Assembly (NCBI RefSeq): GCF_020520425.1
Contig: NC_079487.1
Coordinates: 110,332,141 to 110,396,140, forward strand
DNA length: 64,000 bases
Reading direction: 5' to 3'
Source: Spinacia oleracea
Lineage: Eukaryota > Streptophyta > Magnoliopsida > Caryophyllales > Amaranthaceae
Shown: in pieces, positions 6,893 through 59,600 of the stretch
Numbering within the stretch: the stretch's first letter is position 1
How the letters are laid out: each line of letters opens with the position of its first letter
Notes under the pieces: generated by a model
What the model was told of the DNA's origin: nothing
What the model saw: the letters and a program-made list of their open reading frames with translations, nothing else
The model's database searches: none
Translations under genes and position numbers: made by a program

Positions 6893-9800
6893 TTTTTTAC
6901 TCTTGATATTTTCCCCCGAATTTTAAGGGTTATGGCTTTTGGGTGTTTTTTAGTTTTTGGGGTGGATTAAAGGTGGTGGGACTATTTTCGGGTGGAAGGC
7001 TGTTTTCGGTGGGTGGAAGGATCGTGTGGTGACTGGGAGGGTGATTTCGGTTGGTGGGGTTCTTTCGGGTGGCTGTGAGAGGTTTTGTGTGGCTGGTAGG
7101 GTGATTTCGAGTGGCTGTGATAGTCGTTTCCGGTGGCTGGAAGGGTGGTTTGGTGGTTTCGGGTGGTGGGGTAGTGTCTATGTCTGGAGTTGTATTGGTG
7201 GATGCAGTGGTTCGGCCAACGGAGGTGGGGCAATGATGATGGTTATAGGGCGGCAACAGCAGTGGTAGGGAATTAGCCTTGTTGATTCTCGTTCCCTTTC
7301 CTGAATACCCCATACCAAACGCCCCCTAATTGGACTGCAATTAAACAGACATTCTGTATATTTCTGGCATTAAGAAAATTGTCTCAAAGCATTGAATTTT
7401 GAAGAAAAAAATGTTTCCAATTTATGATCCCGCCAACTTTGCCGCATATATATAGAAGATTCTTGCAAATTTACCTCCTAGTTGTACTGTACTTGGCCTG
7501 AAGAATATATACTCCAAATTTCTAGAATAATACCAAGTAGGTTTGAAGGCTTGAACCCATCAGTTCTTTTGAGATCATTGACCTTGGCCCTGCTGTTCCC
7601 ATGGAAGATGTCCCATGACTAGATATCAAGATGGGGGTTAAAGGTATCATCATGATTCACAAGTGATTGATTCTTTGTTATTCTTTGTTGTGTACATGGA
7701 GTTGTAACTTTCTGTGATCCCAACCTCTCTGTTTCATATCGAAATGTGCATCAAATTTTCCGAATAGGCTTTCCTTCATAACAATACGTATGAGAGAAAA
7801 CACTATCATTGGGTTTTGAATTTTTGATCCTATGGTTCAACACAATACCTTGATTTTTTTGGATTGATTCTATTACATGAGCTAATTCTGAAATTTTATC
7901 TATTTTACATTTTGTTTTGAAGGTAATTTATCTATTTTACATTGATAGGCATATGTAATTTTTTCTTTTTCCTTTTTTGTATTTATGAGCCCAAAACCTT
8001 ATTATTGATTCTACCTTGCTTCCTCTCTATCAGTTCTTTTATGTGCGTACTTAGGCACATCCTATTTCACCATGTTTTTACTTTGAATGTGTAGTACCTC
8101 AAACTTTCTTTCTTTGCTGCAGCTTAAAACAATTTCCATAAAGGATGATGCATGTGTAGCTAGCCTGTTTTGTTTTAGTATCTGCTAGCACAATTTGTTT
8201 TCTTTTTTCTTTTCGTAATGGATAAATTTATGAGCTATTGCACCAACATGATTTCAGTTTTCGAGATGATATATATCTTAAATTGCTCATATGAACTTTG
8301 TCAACTTGCTGTATCATCTGACCTGGCTTTTTGCACAACTATTTCAGACTGAATCAGAAGTGATTGTTTCCAGACTTTCCATTCCCCGTACAAATTTTGA
8401 GTTGCAATATCTGAGGCCTGACTTCATTATGCTTCGCGTTATTGCACGAAACTTGATAATGTGGAGCAGGTTTGATGCCACAGAAGAATCTTTTGATTTG
8501 GAGAATTGACCATAGCTCTAAAACTTATTAAGTAGCTACTCTGAACTCATGCAGGGTTAAGCCAACCAAAGAATGGGTTGAGTCTCAGATTCCTCAAATT
8601 GTGAAAGAAGGTATTGGGGCTCTTGGTGATGAACGGACTGATATGGATGAGGTGGATGAAGAAGCAATTGTCCAAGCATACATGAATATTGTTGCCGGAG
8701 CTTGTATATCTCTTGGTAAGTTCGGTTTGCTATCCTCTTTCCACTTTCATATGCAGAAATTTACTTTTTTGTTTTAATTTCAATAATTGTGGCATTTGCT
8801 TGTATCACATCACCTTGTTGTACGGTATTTTACTTAGAAATCCTCCCCCCCTTTCACGTTCTTCTTTTTGACCTAAATATGAGTTGCTGCCTAATCCCTA
8901 CACTTCTGTAGTTCATTAGTTTCTGAAGAAACACGAAATTTTAAATAGTAAACCTGGTGGTAAAAATGTCTGCCTATCATTGGTGACGATTGACTTGCTG
9001 AGCACATTTTTCAATCTCTTATATCCTTGTATCCTTTCAACTTTTTTTATTGTATACTTTTATATGTTTGTTTATCCTATAGGACGCAGTGATCAATAAT
9101 TGTATAGTAAAGGCTTGTAAACAGGTCATTTGTAATTTTGTATTGCTAATGTTTTCTAGCACATGCATGTTTCACCCTTGTATACTCTTCAATTGCGCCT
9201 TAGATTTTCATCTTTAGTTTGAAAAATACGCTGCACTTTTTCCAATCTTTTCGTGCATTTTTTTAATGGAGGGTTGGGACATTTTGGGGGTGGGAGGCGA
9301 GGAGGGGCCGAGGGGGATCAATTTTGTAATGCATTTTCTGTTGTGATCCAATATTGTATAACTGGACATGATTTTACCTTTGTGTAACTTCCTCCTTTTA
9401 CTTGTTAATAGAAGAACAAATAAAAATTTTAATTTCGGCTTTTAGATTTATTTGGAAGTCCTGAGCTCCACTTAAAGTGGGAGATTTTGTATGCACCGTG
9501 ACATTGGGTAGAATCAATACTAATTATATGCACCAAAGTAGAAGATTAGGGATGGCTATTTCTCTGGATATGTGCATGTTGGGTCGTGGACTCTTGGCAA
9601 TAGTGAGTCCTGCCGTATGTCTTTATTCATTGTGAGATGGCTAGTAATATTTGGAGGCTAATTGCAGCGTACGTAGATCACCAAGTTTACCCTTGTATTG
9701 TTTTAGTCCTATTGAAGTTCACTTTGTGGGCTCTGAAAGGGCAAAGGAGGAGAAGATGTGGTGGCGGCGATGCTTTTTTGGCAATCCTTTGGTGTTTTTG

Positions 9801-12800
9801 TTTTGAAAGAAATGTGTTATTTTCTTAGGAATCGCTTTATCTTGTGATTTGTTGTGGGATAGAAATATAGAATAACTCCTCCTTCTTTGTGTTCTTTTTA
9901 ATAGTTACTCAATGTAATATCTAATTTAAAGCGGTGAAATTACTCAATGTAACTCATTCTCCTTCTTTGTGTGCTTTAAACGTAACTGGGCTAATAAATA
10001 ATTTCTTCCTTGCTGTTTGGATAACTTATCCTCTGTTCTACTTTCTGCTGATTGCTCATTTATAAAAAAAAAATGTATCTCATATTGTACTTCTGCCTGA
10101 TCTACCTGAAAACTTGTACTTCCCATTTTGTTTCCTAGTTCTAGCTTCAACAAGCAAATGGAACTCCTATAGTTCTTTGGTAAGGACTAAGGAGTGTAAA
10201 CTGAAAAGCTTGGGGATTGGAATTTACTGTTGGATATTTTGGGGTGTGGCGGGGTATTTGACGTTAGGATTTAGTGATGGAGCCTAGGCACAAGGCTCAG
10301 GCGCGCGCCTTTTGAATACGAGGCGCACATAATTTCCTAGTAAACCTTAAAATTCAGTATAGAACAAAATTAACACAATTTATACTCAAAACAACATAAT
10401 ACTAGGAGTGTCAAATTTTCTTGCCGGTTTATAAGCGTCGCGTGATCCCGTCGATGGAGTGCCTGAATTATAACCTTCCATGGTAATTACAAGTTGGAAA
10501 TATGAAAATTAACTCATATTATGCTACTGCCACTACCCAACAAGCTTAGGTTGTAGAGGATATGACCATTGATAGGTCACATGGGGTGTGTTTTATATCA
10601 TTGGAAAAGAAAAAAAAGTAAATAAAAGATCCACGTCAGCCTGATTCGCCTGAAAACTGAAGGCGACGGCACTGCGCACTGTGCCTTACTTTAAGGCGCT
10701 GCGCCTTGTGCCTTACTTAAGGCGCACGAAGGCGCGCGCCTAGAGAGCTGAAGGCGCCGAAGGCTGAGCCTAGGTGAGCCTTGAGCCTAGGCGCGCCTTG
10801 GGCGCGCTTTTTTAAACTAATCCTTTTAAGGTGGTCATTATAATACTTGTAATAGGTTCGAAATTTTTGAATCAACTTCCCGTATTTATCATCTTCTCCT
10901 TTGCCTTGTTGTCTCCCTCTCGTGAGTCGTGATCATCCCATCATGTACAACCAGTGATACCTAAGTCGTGGTATGCTTTGGGATGCAAAACAGGTATAGG
11001 AATGAAATTCTCTACCTAGAAATAGTAATTGCTAGTCTAAAAGTGTACTACTGTTCCATATACCACGTATCAATTGGCACTATCGGGTCTTGGTTCATGG
11101 GGAGATTAGTGAGTTGGGTAACATTGGTCCAAACCATCAGTTCCTGGCACTTTGAGCTTTTTCTTTGGGGCCAATAGTAAATCATGATATCTGTTACATC
11201 TATAATCAATATCTTTCTCCTGGTGATGGATTCTCTTCTGATGAACTACACAAATCAGTGTCGTTATGTGGTTTTACCTTTACTGTCTCTCACCTCCAGT
11301 TAGCTAAGCACTCAGCAATGTCCCCTCTTTATATTTCCTTTCTGCAGTTATGCAGTATCAATTGGCAGTGGCTTACTTCTGTACGCAGGGCACTAGGGCG
11401 CCAGATTCTGCTCAGTGCCTTCAACGCTGCCTTTTGAAATATCTATAAATTTTTCGGATTTTTCATGAAATACCCCCGAGTTTTTGCAAAATTCACCAAA
11501 TGCCCCTCGACTTTCAGAAATTCACCAAATACCCTCCACTTTTTAACAAATACACTATATACCCTTAGTGAGCATTTTCTGTAAATTCCGTTAGATTTCC
11601 GTCAACTTTAACCTAATTAACTCTATTAATCCATACTTATCTTAATTACCCTAACTAAATTTAAAAATAAAAAACTTTATTTTCCTTTACTTATTTCCCT
11701 CACCATCTTCCATCTTATGCCCAATCTCTCTCCCCACCTTCATTCTTCGGTTCTTCCTCTTCTCCTCACCATTGAAATCCGCCCAATATCTCTCCTCCCC
11801 CTTAAATTTGCTTCAAAACCAAAACAAAAAGCTAATTAACACAAAAATTGCAACAATCACCCTTTTACCAGTCATACTAGTAATCCCAGACTCCCTGAAC
11901 CCACGAAATATAGCCAATGCCACCAAGAACTGAGCCGCACCCACGTCCTTTCACTCAACGACGACGACAAGGGGCTCGAATCGGAACACTCACCCGGACG
12001 AGTCTGAGTTGGTCGATTCGGGCGAGTTAGCTGACTCGCCGGCGACGATTGTGGTGGTGGGTGGGAAGATGAGGTTGAGGATCGAATTCGGGTCCACCGG
12101 GTCGTGGGAGATGAAAGCCCATGTGCCTCATTTGGGGTTGTTTAGGAGGTGAGAGAAAATGGAGATGCGGCCGGAGCAAGAGGAGGTGGTTTAGTAGGAA
12201 GGGTGGTGGTTAATGGTGTTGAAAAGAGGTATGATTGGTGCGTCAATTTGTGAGGAGTATGATTGTGTGCTTCTGCTAATGCTATAGCCACTGAATTTGT
12301 GAGGCATTATTTTGATTTTTATTTTCAAATTTGAAAGGGAGAGAGGAGAAAGGTTAGTAGCAGATCGGGATTGGGAGTCCATTGAAGAAGGAGAAAGGGA
12401 AGTAGCAGATCGGTATTGGGCATCCATGGAAGAAGGAGAGAGGGAAGATAAAAGGGGTGAGTTAGGAGGAAGGTTAGTTGTGGGTTGGCATTTAAATATT
12501 TTTTAGGGTAGTTGATTAGATTAATTAGGAGTTAATTAGTTTAGTTAAGGAAAAAGTTAACGGAAAAGTTAACGGAGCTAACGGAAAATCGTCATTAAGG
12601 GCATCTTGTGTATTAAGTTTATAAATAAGAGTATATAGTGTATTTGTTAAAAAGTGGAGGGCATTTGGTGAATTTCTGAAAGTCGAGGGGCATTTGGTGA
12701 ATTTTGCAAAAATTCAGGGGTATTTCATGAAAAATCCGTAAATTTTTACATTAGATCTTAGTGGAACATGCGTTTGCCAATTCTAGCATGAAAATGGCTA

Positions 12801-15312: not shown

Positions 15313-18300
15313 TTTTGAAAGAGATGTAACCTTGACATAGGAGTTACACTGATTGCTCCAAATCAAATGAAGGTGACCCTCCTGAATTCCCTGAAAGCAT
15401 ATCCTGATTCGGTGGTACAATTTTGCTGCCTTTTCTCAGCAATAGAACTTGTTGTTCTTAGGTTTTTCAAAATTAATTTTATTGTCTTGTATGAAGTATC
15501 TGTTAATTATAATTATGCTTGATTATCTATGGTATTTTTTCAAAATGATTATACATCATTTGAGATGTTGCACCTGCTTTCTTCCAGGCGTATAGGCACT
15601 TCTATGTTCTTGCTACAGAAGCTCGCTGGATTCAAACAGTTGATGTTGACACTGGTCTACCAGTGTATGCCCCTCTTGAAATTACTGTAAAAGAAACTGA
15701 ACATCATGCAGAGACAAGTTTCTGTGAGGTCACACCTTGCCTTCTTCCAGAACGCGCCATTGTAAGTTTAGAGATCTTTCAAAATTAGGATACGCTTTAG
15801 CTATTAAGTACTTATTATATAACATTGAAACAATTGAATGAGACAAAGAGGAAGAAAACATCAAATAGCAGTTCATTGTTACAATATTTCTAGAAACCTC
15901 AAGTTTGAATATCTTAATCCTGGCACTTTCCACTTGGTAGGTTATTTTAATGATCTCAATATTTATATTGCTTACAGCTCAAAAGTGTTCGTGTTTGTGG
16001 TCCAAGGTACTGGCCCCAAGTCATAGAGCTTACTCCTGAAGGTAGTATGTTTACTTTTATTGCTTAATTTTCTCAAGAAATGAATTATAAAAAATAGATA
16101 TTTTAATTTGTTTTGATGTGTTATTCTCACAGATAAACCTTGGTGGCTTACTGGTGACAAAGATCACCCATTTAATTCTGGTGTTCTTTACATCAAAAGA
16201 AAAGTTGGAGCTTGTTCTTATGTGGATGATCCTGTTGGATGTCAGTCATTAATATCTAGAGCCATGAACAAGGTATGTTTTTCATGAATAAAATACTAAT
16301 TTTTTTGTTGGTCCCTATTGTGATCATAATTTGATGTTTAATAGTTTTGCTAACATTTGCGTCTATAGGTAACTAGAATTTGTTTATCCTTGTGCAGGCA
16401 TTTAGTTTGACAAGCATGCTAGGTTATGCTTCCAAAATCAATAGGCATCCTGAACCAGGTTCTAGTAATGTCGATCACCTGGTCAGCACATTTTCGTCTG
16501 ATCCAAGCTTAATTGCTTTTGCTCAGCTTTGCGGCAACTCTTCCTGGAACAGCAGGTAAAATGTGGAACTGCAATGATGCAATATTTCCTTTTTCCTTGA
16601 ATAAAGGATCAAATAAATAAATATATTTTTCCTTGAAGGTGTCTGTTTTTCAAATTCATGGTTCTGTTAGATGATGTGAAATTCTCTTGTTATTTCTGAG
16701 ATGTTATCAAATGATTCCCGCTGCAACATATGGTACTTATGTATTCTGGCAAAAGCATCTAGCTTGTTTTATTGTGCTTGGTTTCGTATTCGGTTTCAGA
16801 GTTGCATGGCCTTTCTGAGTTTCTTGAGGGTGAAATATGTTGTGGCTAACGTTATCTTAATTGAGTAGATGCTGAAAGGGGTATGATAATTTGTGACATA
16901 TCCATGACCAACTCATTGTTACAGAAACCAATTTAAGTAATCAATCGAATATGCAAATTTCCTTCCTAAATTGGGTTTGGAGGTTGGATAATTTTTGTTT
17001 TGTTTTGTTTTGCAAATGTTTGGGGGTTTACAAGCTTTTATATAAGGCGGTCTTACACAAAAGACAACATTGGTGTTGTATAAGTTAAGCAATGGAACCA
17101 ATTAGTTAAGCACTACAACCAATTAGTTAAGCAATGAAGCTAATTAGTTAAGCACTAGAACTAATTAGTTAAGCAATGGAACCAATTAGTTAAGCAATGA
17201 AACTAATTAGTTAAGCAATGGAACCAATTAGTTAAGCACTAGAACCAATTAGTTAAACAATGAAACCAATTAGTTAAGCACTAGAACCAATTAGTTAAGC
17301 AATGAAACTACTTAGTTAAGCACTTGAACCAATTAGTTAAGCAATATAACCAATAAGTTAAGCAATCAAAGTGGTCTTTTCGGTAAGGCAGACTTACCCA
17401 AAAGTTGCCGTTGTGGGTTAGATATGCATAACCTTACTCTTGTTATGGCTGAGTGACTGTTTCCTACACTATTTTTAGTACGGAATCTGTGCTTTGGTAA
17501 TTAACTACTTGTTTGTCTGGGCAACAGGTCAGATGTTGATTTCCAGGAATTTTGCTTGCAAGTTTTATTTGAGTGTGTCAGCAAGGACAGACCAGCTCTT
17601 TTGCAGGTATAATTTGTCTGATATTTCTTGCCTTAACATAAATCACTGTGGTAATGGGATATGGGATAAGTTTTATGTGGATTTTCCTGCTTATAATTCT
17701 ATTACCTTCACTGCGTTAGTTGGCAGAATAATGGAAACATATTTGGCAAGATGTTGTGACACTATTATTTTTATGTTTATGATACCAATGCTGAATGCTA
17801 TGCAGGTCTACATGTCTTTGTATACAATGATTAGATCAATGACTGACCAGGTCACAGGCGACATCGTCACCTTTTCTGATTCCCTCTCCATATCTAGTTT
17901 GAAGGTAACATGTCCACCAGAAACTGCTGTTTGTCGTACAGTATTATTAACAAAACAAAACAAATGTGGAGAAACAAAATCAGTAGTTACATTTAGATTA
18001 CTAACAGTTGCTTGATGATGGAGACTTTTCTTTACATTTGAATGCCTTTTTTCCACTTGAAAGATCTTAAATAAAACTTTTGATAATGAAGTTCTGGCTA
18101 TTGTTTCTCCTTTAAACCTGGAGGTACACTAACTTGTCAAGAGTGCTCATATATTGGCCTACTAGGCTACTATTATAATATGGGTCTTTCCATTTCATCA
18201 TATAGTATTATGAATTTCTTATGAATGCAGCTTGTAGTAGCCTACAATGAGGCCTTGCTGAGAGGAAGATTATCCTCGTCGAGATATGGCATTGTTCAAT

Positions 18301-49426: not shown

Positions 49427-50303
49427 CTCCCTCCGTATTTTTTTAAGAGATACATTTGGTTGGGCACGGGTCTTAAGAAGAATAAAAGAAGTGGAGTTGG
49501 GGTAGATATTTTAATAAGTAAGTACTATGGGGACCATGTCCTTTTGAACAAATGGGGGTGGGGGTGGGGTGGGTGTAGTTGTAAAATTATTTTTTTAATT
49601 GGATGGTGGGCCAAAAGGTGTAGTAGATATATTATTCAAGGCAAATTTGCTAAAAAGGACCTTTTATAACTCAAATTTTGCGAGAAAGGACCTTATATAA
49701 TTTTTTTTGTGAAAACACACCTTAAAGTAATTTTTTTTGCGAGAAAGGACCTAAGGAAAGTTTCCGGCATTGACTGAGCTTTTCCGGCCATTAACTTGCA
49801 CGTGAGCAGCACGTATGGCTTACGTTGGCTAAAGACAATGATTTTCCCGACTCTTGAATTTTCAAACTTGATTTTATTTCGGTTTTTTTTTCAACTTTAG
49901 GTTTTAAAGCTTAGAATTTTGGAGGAAAATTGGGTGTGATTAGCAAAATAATGCCACACGTGCTTCTCACGTGCAAGTCAATGGCCGGAAAAAGCTCAGT
50001 CAATGCCGGAAATTTACTCTTGGTTGTCTTTCGCAAAAAAAATTACATTAATGTGTGATTTCACAATTTTTTTTTATATAAGGTCCTTTCTCGCAAAAAA
50101 ATTTATATTAAGGTGTTATTTCACAAAAAAATTATATAAGGTCCTTTCTCGCAAAATTTGGATTATAAAAGGTCCTTTTTAACAAATTTGCCATTATTCA
50201 ATTAGGTGGTGGGGTTGATAAGTTACCAAAAATGGCAAGTGTATCTCTTAAAAAAATACGGCCGGAAAAGACAAGTGTATCTCTTAAAAAAATACGGAGG
50301 GAG
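49427..50303. mobile_element. Stowaway-like MITE interrupted by a Mutator-like MITE
   Basis: Ends CTCCCTCCGTATTTTTTTAA are inverted (GAGATACA / GTATCTC continues), with TA duplications at 49425-49426 and 50304-50305. Without the insert it is about 315 bp. The right side carries an additional partial copy of the end sequence (AAGTGTATCTCTTAAAAAAA occurs twice, near 50239 and 50272). Confidence 0.85.
49640..50192. mobile_element. Mutator-like MITE nested in the Stowaway
   Basis: Ends GGCAAATTTGCTAAAAAGGA and, in reverse, GGCAAATTTGTTAAAAAGGA form inverted repeats of well over 100 bp (GCGAGAAAGGACC words repeat inside). A perfect 9-bp duplication ATTATTCAA flanks it (49631-49639, 50193-50201). 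It is 553 bp. The first bases GGCAAATTTGC are shared with the Mutator-like MITE at 36360-36810. Confidence 0.88.
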
Positions 50304-50670: not shown

Positions 50671-53600
50671 ATGTTCTCCAAACTCTTCAACAAGCATTCA
50701 TCTGATTCTCAGGTCTCCTTCTTTCTGTTTTTGTATATATATTTTTTAATTCTTATTTCTGGGTTCAGAAGATTTATTTCTTGTCTCTGATCATTGTTTA
50801 GGGTTTGATATTGATAATTTCTGGGTTTTTCCCTGAGAAAGGGCCCAAAAACGCTCAATTTGTAGCTTTAATTGCAAGATACTTTAGTGGATTTATGTAT
50901 GTATTTATTTATTTATTTATTTATTAAAACTGGTTGTGTTGAGCTTTAGGATTTGTATGTGTTATTTGATATTACTGTATGTATAATGTATTGAAGAAAA
51001 AATGGCAGAGGACTTTTAAGTAGGCCGAGAATAAGTTATTCATTCAATCAATCATGCATCAGTTATTCAATTATTCCCACTACTATTCGAGGGGTTATTT
51101 TGATGGGAATTTTCAATGTGGTGGGAACAAGGAACATCATACCCTTGTCCGGTGTCAAGTATCCGACATTGGTACTTGAGGTAAAATGAAGAATTGGAGT
51201 TGCATAAGAGGAACTTCATACATATCAATGTTTTCTTATGCCAATTGTTAGAAATTTGGCTGTTTTGAGGCGGAGAATCAAAGTAGAGTGAGGGATGGTC
51301 ATGTTACCTATTTACCTTCAACAAGATTTAGGAATTAGAAAACATCTACTGTTGCAGTAAATTATGAATTGTGAGTTGTCCTTTCTCGTGCGATTAGCAA
51401 ATCCTGTTTTAATCTTTCGATACAATCTGATGGTCAGAAATCATGTATTTTAAATTTTAGGTTTTATATAGTGAAATAAGATCTTGTTATGCAGGGCTTG
51501 AGACCTTGAGTTATCTTTAGATGACCTTTCTCCTGTTTTTAGGTCTTTATTTGCAAGCAGTTGTGTCTACCAAATATACCTTTTAGATTTTATATTTTAG
51601 GACTTGCTAGTTTTCATCCATCATATGGTTTAAATGGTAATCTTATTCTTCGGGTACAAATCTTCACCTATTAAACTGTAACGTGAGTTGTGGATTGGTT
51701 CAATGATTAATCAGCTAAGGAAAAGTGCGAAGGGCTTTTTAAAATTCCTTCTTGCTTTGCCGTGGGGATTCTGTTGAACAAACTTTGAATACATAAAGTG
51801 AAGCTACTATGCTGAAGCCTTGCCTTGGATTTCCCTCATTTCATCGGAACTACTATTATTACGATTTGCTAGACACTTGTTCGTATAGTCAAAGCCATCC
51901 AGCGCACAAAAACTCCTCTGCTCTTTTCTATTCTTTTTTTGTGTGTGTGTGTGACGGGGTGGGGGTGGGGGAAGGGGAGGATCTTCTACCGTGATCATTC
52001 GGGGACAGTCCCCTGATAAGTTTTATGAAATTATTAACTATTCAAGCTAAAATATACATATAAAATGTTGGTGATATGTTGATTGAATGCATTTGTATTC
52101 AGTAGGATGTTAAAGTTTTAAACTTTGGCCCTCATAACGTTTGGATCCCCTACTGGAAGGGAAGGTTCAAGACCAACTTATTAAAAATGTTTTGAATGTT
52201 AGTTATATTACACATTGTTTACTCAATGATCTGAATTATGGTTAAAAAATTACATCAACCCTTTGCAGCTGAGACTAATGTCACTATTTCCATTTCACTA
52301 TGGAGTATATATCTATTGCAAAGGTTTTTTTTTTTAGTACAAATGAAAGGTCTTCGAACTTTCTGCATAAGTAACAGGTACTTTAGACACAAAGTGATGG
52401 TGTTTGTGGTATTATTTATACTAATGAAAAGGCAACGCGTGGATGGTGCAGGGGCCTGCACGTAGATCTACGTGCACCTGCACCAAAACGCAAAAACATT
52501 AAAAGAAAACGCAAAAAACAAAAAAACGAAAAAGAACATAAAAAACTAAACAGAAAGAACTAGAGTAAACAAAAAGAACATTAACTAAACCTGAAAAGAA
52601 CACTAATGTCAAAAAACTAAAGAAAATATACAAAAATGAAAATAACATATTATCTCTCCTGATAAGTGATAACTATAAAAAGAACAACTATTTTTCAAAA
52701 AGAACATCGTGTGAAAAATGCAACAGAAAAACAAAAAAAAAACATATTATCGATAATATTATTAAATATTAAAAAACTGTAAAAAAGTTAAAGAACACAA
52801 AATAATCAAAAAAAGAACAACAACTTTTTTACAAAACACAAAGACCAGAATCAAAAGAAAAATAAAATAACAAAAACTAAAAAAAAACGACAACAAAAAA
52901 AGAAAAAAGAACACAACACATGAAAAAAAACAGCATTTTCTTTTTCCTTATCAAACAAAAGAACATAATGAAAGGGACGAAAAGAACAACAACTCTATGT
53001 TCTTTTATTAGTTGTATTTGTTCTTTTCAAACCAATTAATGTTCTAATTAAAAAGACGAAAACGACGATATTTTGATGCACTTAAAACTAGATCTGTATT
53101 TTTATTTAAATGTATTTTTGTTTTTATCCCACACATCAGATCTATGTTCTTTTATTAAGTGTTATTTGTTCTATTCAAACGATTTTATGTTCTAATTAAA
53201 AAGACAAAACGACGATTTTTTGATGCAATTAAAACTAAATCTATATTTTTTTTAAAAGTATTTTTGTTCTTTTACCACGAATCAGACTATGTTCTTTTTT
53301 AAGTGGTATTTGTTCTTTTCAAACCATTATATGTTCTTTTTTAACAATCTATGTTCGTTGATATAAAAGAACAAACTATGTTGATTTAAAAGAACAAACT
53401 ATGTTGATGACACAGTAAAAGTAAAGTTGTGAAAAAGAACATAACAATCTGAAAAGAACATTAGAGAAAAAAACAAGGAAACGTACCTTAAACACTTGAT
53501 CAACATTTATCAGGAGCATCAACATTGAACTAGTGTTTTTCTTAATTCACTCATTTTCAACAAACAAGAAACATTTAGAAGGAATTTTAGAGAGAGAATA

Positions 53601-56600
53601 AGGAGAAAATGTATTTTTTACTCTTTCATTCACCATCTCATTCTTTCTCTCTCAAAAAATCTCTCTTATGTTGAGAGAATATAAATCATCTCCTCTCTCT
53701 CTCTCTAAAATGTATTTCTAAAATGACTAATGGTTATGACTCATAAGTACAATTATTATATATACAGTTGCTGAAAAATAGAAAATGAACAAATAGGAAG
53801 TAGAATCAAAGAATTGAAGAACAGAGAAGGAGAAAAGAAAAATTGTTAAAGAGTGCATAATGAGAACCGTGCACGTGTTTTTATTTTGTTCTTTTAACAG
53901 CTTATTATGAAAAGAACAAATGAAAAGTTTTAAAGAACAAATATAGAGACCAAAAGAACAAGGCAAGTACTTTGTCCCACAATAACATATGATTCGGAAT
54001 CATCATTTTCATCATCCAGTTATGAATTATCAAGCACATTATTCATAATATCTGAAAAAATAATAGGTTAATATGTATAAAAACAAGAAAAAGAACGCAA
54101 TCAAAAGAACAAAGGATAAATAAAAGGTAACAAGAAAAATAACACAATAAAATAAAAAGAACAAGTTATGAAATGCAAATGAAATTGAAATAATAGAAAA
54201 GAAGAACACAATAAAATAAAAGAACAAATTATGAAAAGCAAATGGTCTATTTTTCTACTATAATGTTCTTTTAATACAAGCATAATGTAACTGTTCTTTT
54301 CATTCGAGCATATGTTCTTTTAATACGTAAAACTGTTCTTTTCTGGAAAAAAAAACGTAATTACATAATCAAAATCTTCAAAATCAACGATTTCAACGAA
54401 ATCAGTGTGTTATTACATAATTTGATTCATTAAAATCATCAAATTCATCAAAACACGATTATTACAAAATCAAAATCATCAAAATAGTCAAAATCATCAA
54501 AAACACAACTATTACAAAATCAAAATCATCAAAACATGCCATTTGTTATTACAAAATTGAAAAATTACCTCCCAAAATCTGATTATCAACTGTAGAATTC
54601 AGATTTGAAGAAGAAGAATCCATTTAATTTGATGTTGAAGCAGAAAAATTAACGAATTTTTGGGAATTTTCATGAATTTCTCTCTCTAAAACCCATTTTA
54701 GAAAACCTAGTTTGCACTTTCTCTCTCCTCTTCACAGTTTGAATTCAAAACTTAAAACCCAGAAGAATATATATCGCAAAAATAACACAAATCTAATAAA
54801 AGCGCGATAAGCATAACTGAAAAGAACAGAGCCTTTAGTGTTCTTTTGTTTAGGGGAATTGTTCTTTTGTTCAAGGGTATTGTTCTTTTTTCTGGGAATT
54901 TAATGAAAACGCGCGTTTTGTGTTTAATGTTGGTCGTTTTAATCCCGGTGCACCTAGAGCTACGTGCACACGCCTGCACCATCCAACTTGCGATGAAAAG
55001 GGAGTGTTTAAGATGAAGTTCATAGTACTTTTTAATTTTAGCATCAACATTCTCCAATAAATTAGGCTAGAGATAGCCTTTGGATCTCAGAAATTAATGC
55101 TTACTTGTGTGATATTACTGATCATTTTTATCTCTGACTGTCAACAGAATGACTCGCCAGAAAGTAAGGCTCTGATTGACTTAAACCCCCAAGTTATTGC
55201 TCACTATGGAATTCCTTCTACGACATCTCGTCTTGCTTATGATCCCATTCAGCAGCTTTTGGCAGTTGGGACCCTGTGAGTTATACTTCCCATCTTATTG
55301 CTGACTAATGTTATCAGGGTATTACTTCCATTATGCATTTTATTTTTATTAAAGGATGAATCTGGTGTACCGCTTATGAGTATATGTGGTAAGATGATCA
55401 TTTCAACTTTGTTGATGAGAACAAATATTGCTATTGGCTAGTTAATAGGACTCGGCATTTGAAAGGTTCGACTGCTATTTTCCTTGTGCTCTAAGCTAGA
55501 GAAAGAATCACAAACTGGTAGCTTGACGTAGCTTCTTATTCTTATTAATTTATGTGTATAACTTTTTCCTCTTTGGAATTGATCAGGTTAGCTTTTTAGA
55601 AACTTTATCCAGATTTAAGACATCGATTACATACTTACATTAATGATTTGAATATGACTGCCAATAATTTCTGTATGCTTGTAACAGAGATGGAAGAATT
55701 AAAGTTATTGGCAGTAACACGATAGAAGGCCTTTTGACATCTCCAAAGGAAATACCTTTCAAAAACTTAGAGGTAGCTTAATATGATACATATGTAACTT
55801 CCCCCCTTTTGTCCTATGTTCCCGGGCAATTTATTTTTATTTTTTTGGCATAATTGTGGACGTATAGTATAATATATGCTTTACTGCTTGTAAGACTTTA
55901 TACTATGGGAGTTCCTTTTTTAACCTTGAGAATTCTGCATGGCTTCTAAACAGTAGTCGATCACCATCAAAATCGAAGTAGACAAAGGTGAAATATACAA
56001 GATAACTTTTGTGGTGGATTGGCACTCCACAAAAAATCTACAGGAATAGAAAAGGAAGAAAACAGTTATATCATGCTTATGTTCTCTAATATGATTTGCA
56101 CTAGTTAGCATAGTTTATTGCCGACTTTATCATATAGTCTTGACTGTGCCATGTGGTAGATTCTATGAAGAAGGTTCATCTTTTGAGTTATCCTAAGCCT
56201 AATATGCTGAATGTCTCCTTGTAGAAGTATTCATTGATATATTTTTATATATGTGGTACACTATTCGTCTTTTACGGGTCTCAGAACCAAAACCCCTCTA
56301 TCTTGCAGGGTTAACGGCAGTAAAGCTATGTACGGGTTACCCTTCCTTACCTGCAGGGGTAACTTATTCATCTTTCCTTTTAGTACATTATTCATCATTT
56401 GGCCTCTCTCAGATTAGAACCCTCTATTCTGCAGGGGAAAGTCTGTGACTTGTTAGTATTGTTACCCTTCTAGACCCGTAACATTTTTAGTTAGTTACTA
56501 AAGGATTATTTTATTCTAAAAAGATTATTTTGATAGACGTTCGGTTAGATTAGGCATCTCCTTCCTCTGTTGTTTTTCTTATTCCATATGAGTGGCGCCG

Positions 56601-59600
56601 CAATGCGAGTACTTCACCTATTTCTGTACATGTATATCTTGACCTAATAAGGATAATATCGCAATTATCATATGCTGAATGCTCTTATGTTGGTATTTTG
56701 ACTACTTTCTATTTATATTAACTGCATGCCAACTGCAGTGCTGCTGAAGCAGAATAAACGTTTTATGCAGCACCTTTACCTGATATACATAAATTCAAAG
56801 TGGTTGGATAATTATTCTAATAGAGTAATATCATTCTTCATTCTCGTTACTTATCCCTTTTTTTTCTTCTTTTTCTTCTTTTTATCAGTTCCTTCAAAAT
56901 CAAGGCTTTCTAATCGGTGTTTCAAATGAAAATGATATTCAGGTACTGATTTTACATCTCAGAAATCCATCTATAAATTCAAAAATTTTCCACTGATTAC
57001 ATCTCAGAAATCCATCTATAAATTCAGTCTTAGAATCAATTAGATATATGCACTGATTCAATTATTACTAATATCGGCAGGTGTGGGATCTTGAGCAAAG
57101 ATGTATAGCCTCCATGTTGCAATGGGCATCAAATATAACTGCGTTTTCTGTGACGGAAGAAACAAATTATATGTATTTACTCACAACCTAATAGTCCCTG
57201 TATTTTGTAAAGGTAAAAATGTGAACTTCAAAGAAGTCTTCTGATCTGAGCACGGTTGCACAAATCCTATCATACAGGTATCTAGGTGATGATTGTGGAT
57301 TGGTCTCTGTTCTAAAGTATGATGTTGAAGAAAGAAAGATTTTGCGGCAGCAATATAGTATCCCAGCTCATTCAGTTTGTGGTAGTGACATCACTCAATA
57401 TCTTCTCGACTCTGTGTCTTATGCATTTGGCATCAACGTACTGGTGCATGAAATATCTTAAGAATGCATATGGATGTGTACATTATGGTTGTTTCAATGG
57501 GCTACATTCTTTTGTTGCTAGAGTTTGGTATTCCATGGAACAGACACTTTGCAAACAGTTTTTTCAATAGTTAGGGTTCTATGACTTTTATCAGTTTCCA
57601 ATGGTAGCATTGTATTCCTGTGTGGCTCCATAATTTGACAGGTTCTCCAATGAATCTTATCATTTAAAATTTAACATCCTTGAGTGAGCAAGTGTCACTA
57701 CATTGGGAATTTGGGGGGGGGGGGGGGAGTAAGGGATTTAACACAAAAATTATCATCATTGTGAACTGATTTATTTGTTACTAATTATTTTGAGAATTAA
57801 TGCTCTATGAGAAACTACATAAAGTGTCGAGTGGAAAGCTGGCATAGACTGTAAAACTATGCTCCAGTTCTGTGAGAGGGGCTGTTGATGTAATGAAAAT
57901 GTTAATTATTAATAAGATAAGTGAAAGTGATTGAGAAATTTGAATTTGGAGGTCTTATGTGTTATGATATTAATGTATGTCGGTTTGTACTTGAAAAATG
58001 AAAATAACTTATCAAATTTATACGAGTCATTAGTGTCACTAGAAGCATCCATGTTTTGCTTTTTTTGAAACATTTCTCTTTAAAAAGATAAGTGAAAGTG
58101 ATAGATAAATTTGAATTTGGAGGTCTTCTGTGTTATGATATTAATGTCTGTCGGTTTGTACTTGAAAAATGAAAATAATTTATCAAATTAATATGAGTCA
58201 TTAGTGTCACTAGAAGAATCCATGTTTTTCTTTTATGAAACATTTCTTTATAATACATGGTAAGTTGTAATACAAGTTACTACTACTGTTGAGAGTGCAG
58301 AGGCTGCTGGAATTCCACTGCGTAATGACCAATCTGTTGTTGGAGTTCTTCCTCAGCCCTGTTCTAGTGGAAATAGGTAAGATGAGAAGTTTGAATTCCT
58401 CTCTTTGCATTCCACAAGCATTAGCTACTTTGAAAGGAATGTTCCAAGTTCATCTTAACAAACTGTTCTTTCTTCTTTTTCTGTTCTAGCGGAATTACGT
58501 AAGATGAGAAGTCGGAGTGCCTTTCTTTGCACTTCACAAGCATTAGCTGAATTATTTCCTAGTTCATCTTAACACACTGTTCTTTCTTCTTTTGCCTACT
58601 TTTAAATGTCTTACTATGGATGAGCCTTACTATGGATGAGCCTTTAAGAACTATGGAAAGAGAGAAATGAACAAAATGGTTACAATAGGAAATTGGACAT
58701 TACTTTTGAGACTTGATGGATTATTTGTTGTCGATTTGTATGTAATCTACCGTAGTACACTCTGTCATTGATGTACCTTCCTTCTTGCAATTTACTAGAT
58801 GTTACCGTTTGTTACATTTTGAGTTTTCTTGCAGATTGCTGTTTGCATATGATAATGGAGTTATTGTTTTGTGGGATATCTCTAAAGATCAGCTAGTTTT
58901 AGTTAGAGGATTGAATAGTCACCAGGTGAATGACAGGAATGTGGTTAATTTAGCAAATATTAGGAGCAATGAAGTAAAGGATCAGACATTTGGTGACGAA
59001 CAAGGGGATAAGGAGATCATCTCTGTCTGTTGGGCGTCTTCAGATGGATCAATACTGGCTGTCGGCTACGTGGATGGGGATATTTTGTTTTGGAATTTGT
59101 CTGATGTTGCAACCAGCAAAGACCACAAAGCTGGAAAGGCAGCGGACAATGTGACCAAGCTTCAATTGTCATCATCCGACAGAAGATTTCCTGTAATTAC
59201 TTTACATTGGTCAGCAAGTGATGCACACAGTGATCATGGTGGCCAACTCTTTGTTTATGGTGGTGATGAAATCGGATCTGCTGAAGTTCTAACGGTCTCT
59301 CTCTATCTTAACCCAGTCCCTCTGATTACAGTTTTAGTAGTGATGTCATTTGTCAATCTTATCATGTTGCCCCTGGATCCTACTTGTAGACTTGAGAAAT
59401 CTGGTTTTGTCAACTAATCTGCAATTTACATTACATTCTCCATATGCTTATTTGCTTGCAATCTATTTCCCCCATATTGGTCCTCAACCATATAATGTGC
59501 ACCCTAGAATACCAACAGGGATGCAAGCTTCAAAAAGTTAGCATAGTTGTCTGAGTCTGGAAACACATTCTTGATACTGGATATTGTATTTGGTTGATCC

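Follow-up and report, generated by a model that had tools for sequence, protein, structure and literature searches.

Introduction

What is selected in a transposon that carries no recognised gene, and why should one short word recur along nearly its whole length? These questions are raised by a Mutator-like element of spinach (Spinacia oleracea) lying within a 64,000-bp stretch of contig NC_079487.1 (assembly GCF_020520425.1, forward-strand positions 110,332,141 to 110,396,140); the whole stretch is called the window, and positions are counted from its first base. The element holds about 35 copies of the nine-letter word AAAAGAACA, and the best reading of these words, which the sequence comparisons described here make reasonably probable, is that they form a platform in cis that a sequence-specific protein, supplied in trans, would occupy. 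The array would thus probably serve as the landing strip of a protein on which the spread of the element depends. Dense arrays bound by an element-encoded anti-silencing protein have been shown for the VANDAL transposons of Arabidopsis (PMC5735166; PMC10398659).

A Dense Array of One Short Word

A preliminary description of the locus reported about 37 copies of the heptamer AAGAACA or its complement TGTTCTT, and proposed a comparison with shuffled sequence. The count is 38, whereas 1000 dinucleotide shuffles averaged 1.42 and never exceeded 8, and the claim survived this check. The conserved unit is longer than the heptamer, namely the 9-mer AAAAGAACA, with 34 exact copies in the element (shuffle mean 0.36, maximum 4) and three in 61,423 bases of the window outside it. 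An effect of base composition was rejected since both counts lie far above the shuffles. The post hoc choice of this 9-mer was controlled by taking the commonest 9-mer in each of 500 shuffles, which reached a mean of 7.2 and a maximum of 22 copies when runs of A were allowed, and a mean of 4.35 and a maximum of 8 when a G or C was required. The top 9-mer had a median count of 3 in 193 tiles of 2560 bp spread over the window; among the 25 top tiles listed, those not overlapping the element showed 13 copies at a 21-bp minisatellite near 17.1 kb, 9 at its edge and then 6. No letter is fixed on either side of the nine. The words occur on both strands, which points to a signal in DNA rather than RNA and makes an RNA-level role, with TGTTCTTTT as a pyrimidine tract, unlikely.

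The words are clustered and their spacing is locally regular. Gaps of 18-23 bp separate 16 of the 37 neighbouring pairs (random mean 3.0) and gaps of exactly 21 bp separate nine (random mean 0.49), and neither count was matched in 20,000 random placements. A global 21-bp phasing was absent from the periodogram, so the spacing is local only. The earlier estimate of one motif roughly every 70 bp therefore holds as a mean and fails as a pattern. The strand blocks that it described as switching are real: there are 8 strand runs where 19.2 are expected (p=0.0001). The first words stand 99 and 105 bp inside the two ends and both terminal blocks are oriented inward, while 9 of 38 words fall in the outer 300 bp, both ends taken together, about as many as an even spread would give. 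Two long stretches are free of words; by simulation the second-largest gap has p=0.0003 and the largest p=0.0026, and TC/GA runs are present in both.

A Young Mutator-Like Family

The extent of the element, its inverted ends and its perfect 9-bp target site duplication were found as first described (Table 1). The two arms of the window copy are 73 nt long and 75% complementary without gaps; GGATGGTGCAGG is present at both ends, and the left arm includes a perfect 20-bp palindrome, TGCACGTAGATCTACGTGCA, at 52457-52476. In the fetched copies the arms are mostly ~80-82% complementary, with gaps. The element thus has the structural marks of a Mutator-like element, namely terminal inverted repeats and, here and at most other insertions, a target site duplication of 9-11 bp. 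Membership of the CACTA/Spm group was rejected, as the ends read CAACGCG...CTTGCG and the duplication is of 9 bp, against CACTA ends and a 3-bp duplication in that group. The window copy has 48 frames of 30 aa or more, and the 10 of them that were scanned gave no Pfam match above the cut-off; Rfam gave no match at gathering thresholds anywhere in the window.

The host genome (894,210,420 bases in 242 contigs) was searched for relatives. With the left 560 bp as query there were 42 matches (40 of 573 candidates scored), all but two of them 88-100% identical; these two are short matches of the end, at 80%. The core end pattern was located at 238 + 260 = 498 places, against 1 + 1 for the reversed control, which suggests a family of perhaps 250 elements if both ends of each show. 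From 39 left-end copies besides that of the window, 22 full-length copies in 20 loci were obtained. All 22 are 2515-2643 bp long, with 34-39 AAGAACA and 30-35 exact AAAAGAACA, and the fetched copies are collinear with the window copy. The array is present in every copy read, that is, in the window copy, these 22 and two further copies, L048 and L049. Genome copies lacking the array or the ends would have spoken against the preliminary description; all 22 retain both, so that this check, too, was passed. Target site duplications were sought by eye at 20 further insertions: 16 had a perfect 9-bp duplication (in one case once the end was shifted by one base, in another flanking the trimer described below), one a perfect 10-bp duplication, two a 10-bp duplication with one mismatch, and one none. 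The assignment as Mutator-like made in the preliminary description fits these duplications and the shared ends that recur across the genome.

Sorted by identity, the copies fall into subfamilies A, which includes the window copy, B, C and D. The last is represented by L048, where the element at 7317-9900 is 2584 bp long with 33 words and the 9-bp duplication GTACATTGA; as another word-bearing copy of this length, it was rejected as an autonomous element. L049 is an older copy, E, of ~2.95 kb with 29 words. L048 has ~87 bp in the first word-free gap that the A-C representatives lack, and L049 has ~400 bp extra with additional words, which indicates shrinkage or rearrangement of the interior in the course of the family's history. 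The mean for private variants is 0.3% per site, so that the insertions examined are young on the whole. This is a young Mutator-like family whose past mobility is shown by its duplications.

At one locus (L022 1743-9337, G000:C5:24826442-24834036) three family copies form a head-to-tail series with just 2 bp (AA, read in the orientation of the element) at each junction, and the 9-bp direct repeat AAAAAAAAG is found only outside the trimer. This has the appearance of a single insertion, of a multimer or of a unit derived from a circle, or else of an artefact of the assembly. The end pattern had no match in viral contigs and none in a collection of genome contigs. A triple-word pattern had 7 matches in viral contigs, with 3-5 words each in all, and was read as chance.

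Conservation of the Word

The window copy (W) was compared with D and E by taking the word columns from one sequence and counting differences in the other, against spacer positions of the same base. From W to E, 7 of 270 word columns had changed where 28.8 changes were expected, and the reverse comparison gave 7 of 233 (23.4 expected). The corresponding figures were 6 of 251 from D to E (24.9), 4 of 296 from W to D (17.8) and 2 of 285 from D to W (16.9). In each of these five comparisons, which share branches and are not five independent tests, every circular shift of the word map produced more changes. Between subfamilies and towards the older copy, the word thus changes at 0.12-0.30 of the rate of base-matched spacers. 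Across the A-D representatives, 11 of 337 word columns are variable, against 183 of 2023 others (shift p=0.003). These deeper comparisons give good support to the view that the word has been constrained in the source lineages. A word that stays alike along the element as the DNA around it diverges would best be read as an address, and the extended binding platform that the preliminary description had suggested fits the 22 copies that keep the array.

Several observations weigh against such a platform. Gap columns are not depleted in the words across the A-D representatives (p=0.27). Single word sites turn over, W having 30 of 37 in common with D and 22 of 41 with E, although such turnover would fit a platform in which number and density count. 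When the union of both copies' sites is used, the contrast is weaker (15/305 and 220/2058 for W against E, p=0.001; p=0.004-0.01 for the other three copies against E), and B against C alone is not significant (6/324 in words, 72/2183 elsewhere, p=0.23). Polymorphism tests among young copies are mixed. In 21 copies, shared variants fall in 3 of 297 word columns against 96 of 1963 others (p=0.001), with p=0.02 for the contrast of shared and private variants; under union definitions, depletion and this contrast have p=0.005 and 0.026, or 0.007 and 0.062. In 24 copies, depletion has p=0.046 or 0.007 depending on the definition and p=0.03 by circular shift, and the contrast of shared and private variants is not significant (p=0.37, 0.37 and 0.13). 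Two units of the trimer (L022b and L022c) were left out of both counts, and L041, whose end was unmatched by the end pattern, out of the 24-copy count. For the young copies alone, a mutation cold spot may account for the pattern. Private transitions, which are most frequent at CG (18 in 93 columns at CG, 52/515 at CHH, 4/75 at CHG and 26/1841 at A/T), suggest at least some methylation of the copies. Neither an autonomous element nor a binding protein for the family was found in the copies read. DUF1985, the domain discussed below, has 149 matches in the host genome (150 of 893 candidates scored), most without an internal stop, and no DUF1985 gene was linked to the word-array family. To these points must be added the behaviour of the words within a local tandem repeat, given in the next section.

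Competing Explanations

Local duplication helped to build the array, as seen from several tandem units of 21-23 bp and from a 147-bp unit repeated 2.4 times at 52994-53337. The array could accordingly be a minisatellite grown by slippage, a passenger in the element kept alike through the recent spread of one master copy. The youth of the copies is in its favour, as are spacers of near-neighbour words that are somewhat alike (0.37-0.38 identical) and words inside the 147-bp repeat that, unlike those of the whole array, are no better kept than their surroundings (changes of 3/27 against 13/117, 2/26 against 3/26 and 3/26 against 3/27). However, the 12-letter spacers of distant words are 0.29 identical, against 0.30 for random pairs; the whole unit is not alike between copies as in a satellite, and an array with distant spacers as unlike as random DNA is not a decayed satellite. 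Between subfamilies and towards the older copy, moreover, conservation of the words is ~3-8 times that of spacers matched for base, whereas the 17.1-kb minisatellite in the window keeps its whole 21-bp unit (83% matches). This explanation is already largely refuted and we regard it as very improbable; the runaway satellite once envisaged is not borne out for the array as a whole, its local duplications notwithstanding.

The main rival has the words as binding sites of the transposase or of an accessory transposition protein, spread unusually far inward and serving synapsis and cutting instead of acting on silencing. There are precedents in the Spm element, whose TnpA binds subterminal repeats. 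In the CACTA elements of Chenopodium a 12-bp word is repeated 8-13 times in each of the two subterminal regions (PMC8978399), and in the spinach element the blocks start about 100 bp inside each end and the terminal ones read inward; against this, the words do not crowd at the ends, and we consider the explanation unlikely, if worth keeping in view. Less probable still is a platform for a host protein, in which an enhancer or a nucleosome-excluding A-rich sequence would keep the element transcribable or accessible. The spacers of plus-strand blocks are indeed A-rich (0.55 A against 0.22 T), the two largest gaps combine a lack of words with TC/GA runs, and AA/TT power is raised at 10.2 and 10.5 bp, two of the 11 periods tried; the spacers of minus-strand blocks, however, have no strand bias (0.37 A, 0.37 T), and an exact core, GAACA, that is also conserved goes beyond what a signal of composition would give. 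A nucleosome or chromatin signal of a purely structural kind, another suggestion of the preliminary description, is conceivable but would not alone explain this core. AAAG is the core of Dof binding sites; outside the words it occurs 31 times and thus shows no enrichment over shuffled spacers (39.7), and plain Dof-type sites were rejected as an explanation.

Known Systems Compared

The closest precedent for a platform served in trans is that of VANC21 and VANC6 with the Arabidopsis elements VANDAL21/Hiun and VANDAL6. Both proteins are element-encoded, bind short words in dense arrays of the same orientation and remove silencing (PMC5735166; PMC10398659). VANC21 binds the 9-mer YAGTATTAY, which is dense mainly in the non-coding parts of VANDAL21, with loss of methylation, and DUF1985 was named as a VANC domain (PMC5735166). 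The marks of a VANC protein are DUF1985 and DUF287. The VANC6 words are AGTTGTCC and AGTTGTAC, and the VANC6 word is also carried by an unrelated element, AT9TSD1 (PMC5735166; PMC10398659). In anatomy, the spinach family is like a VANDAL target: it is Mutator-like, has a dense array of one short word mainly in non-coding DNA, and shares the runs of words in one orientation and the growth of the array by tandem repeats. It differs in the word itself, in the frequent 21-bp spacing and in its inverted ends with GGATGGTGCAGG, which are conserved where those of VANDALs are missing or degenerate. VANDAL groups with Brassicaceae elements, some of which have inverted repeats (PMC6446971). The family was not filed as VANDAL, given its conserved inverted ends, a host outside the Brassicaceae and the failure to see a VANA or VANC gene in any copy read.

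Other plant transposons offer partial parallels. The CACTA element Jozin of Chenopodium also has many copies of a short word, direct and inverted, near its ends; its words are subterminal (8-13 per end) and its duplication is of 3 bp, whereas the spinach array covers nearly the whole length and the duplication is of 9 bp (PMC8978399). The non-autonomous Mu elements of maize, which are activated in trans, likewise have 9-bp duplications, terminal inverted repeats and no recognised transposase of their own. The named effect of MURA in the MuDR/Mu system is to hypomethylate the terminal repeats of non-autonomous copies, and Spm TnpA and maize MURA are both element proteins linked to demethylation (PMC10398659). 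In literature searches, with most subscription journals outside their coverage, the results listed included no other whole-length array of this kind and no description of this family. A text search with AAAAGAACA gave no transposon-related title among the matches listed, one with GGATGGTGCAGG gave unrelated papers only, and the available part of an article on a citrus Mutator-like element (PMC4334395) has no bearing on the spinach family. We know of no whole-length word array in Mu.

Proposed Mechanism

The platform would work as follows. A protein made elsewhere, most likely by an autonomous relative, would recognise AAAAGAACA and occupy a large number of sites, often as neighbours two helical turns (21 bp) apart, so that the whole element is marked; with this spacing, adjacent words would face the same side of the helix, as for cooperative loading. 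The likeliest consequence would be VANC-like, the bound protein preventing silencing by the host or recruiting an activity along the element, while the transposase acts on the terminal repeats. Copies lacking a transposase would propagate only if trans-acting proteins find them, and the word would be their address. We infer that a protein binds the words, that an element encodes it, and that it acts against silencing rather than in transposition chemistry or transcription.

Features of the Element and Its Neighbourhood

Table 1. Features of the Mutator-like element and its flanks (window positions).
Feature	Position	Strand	Remarks
Mutator-like element, subfamily A	52433..54992	+	2560 bp; no recognised protein gene
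Target site duplication ATGAAAAGG, left copy	52424..52432	.	9 bp, exact direct repeat
Target site duplication ATGAAAAGG, right copy	54993..55001	.	9 bp, exact direct repeat
Left terminal inverted repeat	52440..52512	+	contains GGATGGTGCAGG and palindrome TGCACGTAGATCTACGTGCA
Right terminal inverted repeat	54913..54985	-	pairs with left arm
Word block 1	52530..52988	+ only	9 exact AAAAGAACA and one TAAAGAACA
Word block 2	52998..53340	- only	7 copies; takes in the 147-bp tandem repeat
Word block 3	53365..53460	+	4 copies
Word-free gap 1	53461..53816	.	363 bp between word starts; TC/GA runs
Word block 4	53817..54226	mostly +	one - word at 53887
Word block 5	54264..54342	-	4 copies; gaps of 28, 21 and 21 bp
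Word-free gap 2	54343..54819	.	488 bp between word starts; possible minus-strand gene-start relic (weak)
Word block 6	54820..54889	- after one +	one + word, then three - words at 21-bp spacing

The possible relic in word-free gap 2 consists of a minus-strand ATG at 54623 followed by a GT splice-donor-like site. This ATG is present in the window copy and in 3 of 4 other subfamily A copies, and is replaced by ATT in the representatives of subfamilies B, C and D; confined to subfamily A, it lends little weight to a gene start.

Downstream of the element, on the plus strand, lies a WD40-type gene, with WD40 profiles matching 58746-59417. An apparent early exon, recognised by eye, begins ~150 bp past the element, and a 45-aa piece of it had no Pfam match. 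The minisatellite at 17083-17366 has 13.5 copies of the 21-bp unit AGTTAAGCAATGGAACCAATT, kept as a whole, and sits between two short hairpin-like stretches with TAAGGC, CTTAC and CAAAAG; it may be a small mobile element that bears repeats and lies within an intron of an APC1-like gene. Tandem units of ~30 bp with AAGGACCTTATAT on both strands, at 49642-50197, apparently belong to another repeat.

Concluding Remarks

It is possible, though we put it forward tentatively and as rather less than probable, that this chenopod family with ordinary inverted ends represents a second, independently evolved and sequence-specific system by which Mutator transposons of plants escape silencing or are tagged. 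Purifying selection on AAAAGAACA, arrayed over the whole length with helical spacing, would then keep gene-less members addressable, and the label, not a gene, would be their selected content. The family also illustrates how the selected content of a gene-less transposon can be read from a comparison of its copies. If the reading is true, perhaps 250 elements of another plant lineage, with inverted ends that are intact and a different word that is measurably constrained, would suggest that such addressing is a general strategy, and the family would offer a clean system for testing word, spacing and protein by means of synthetic arrays.

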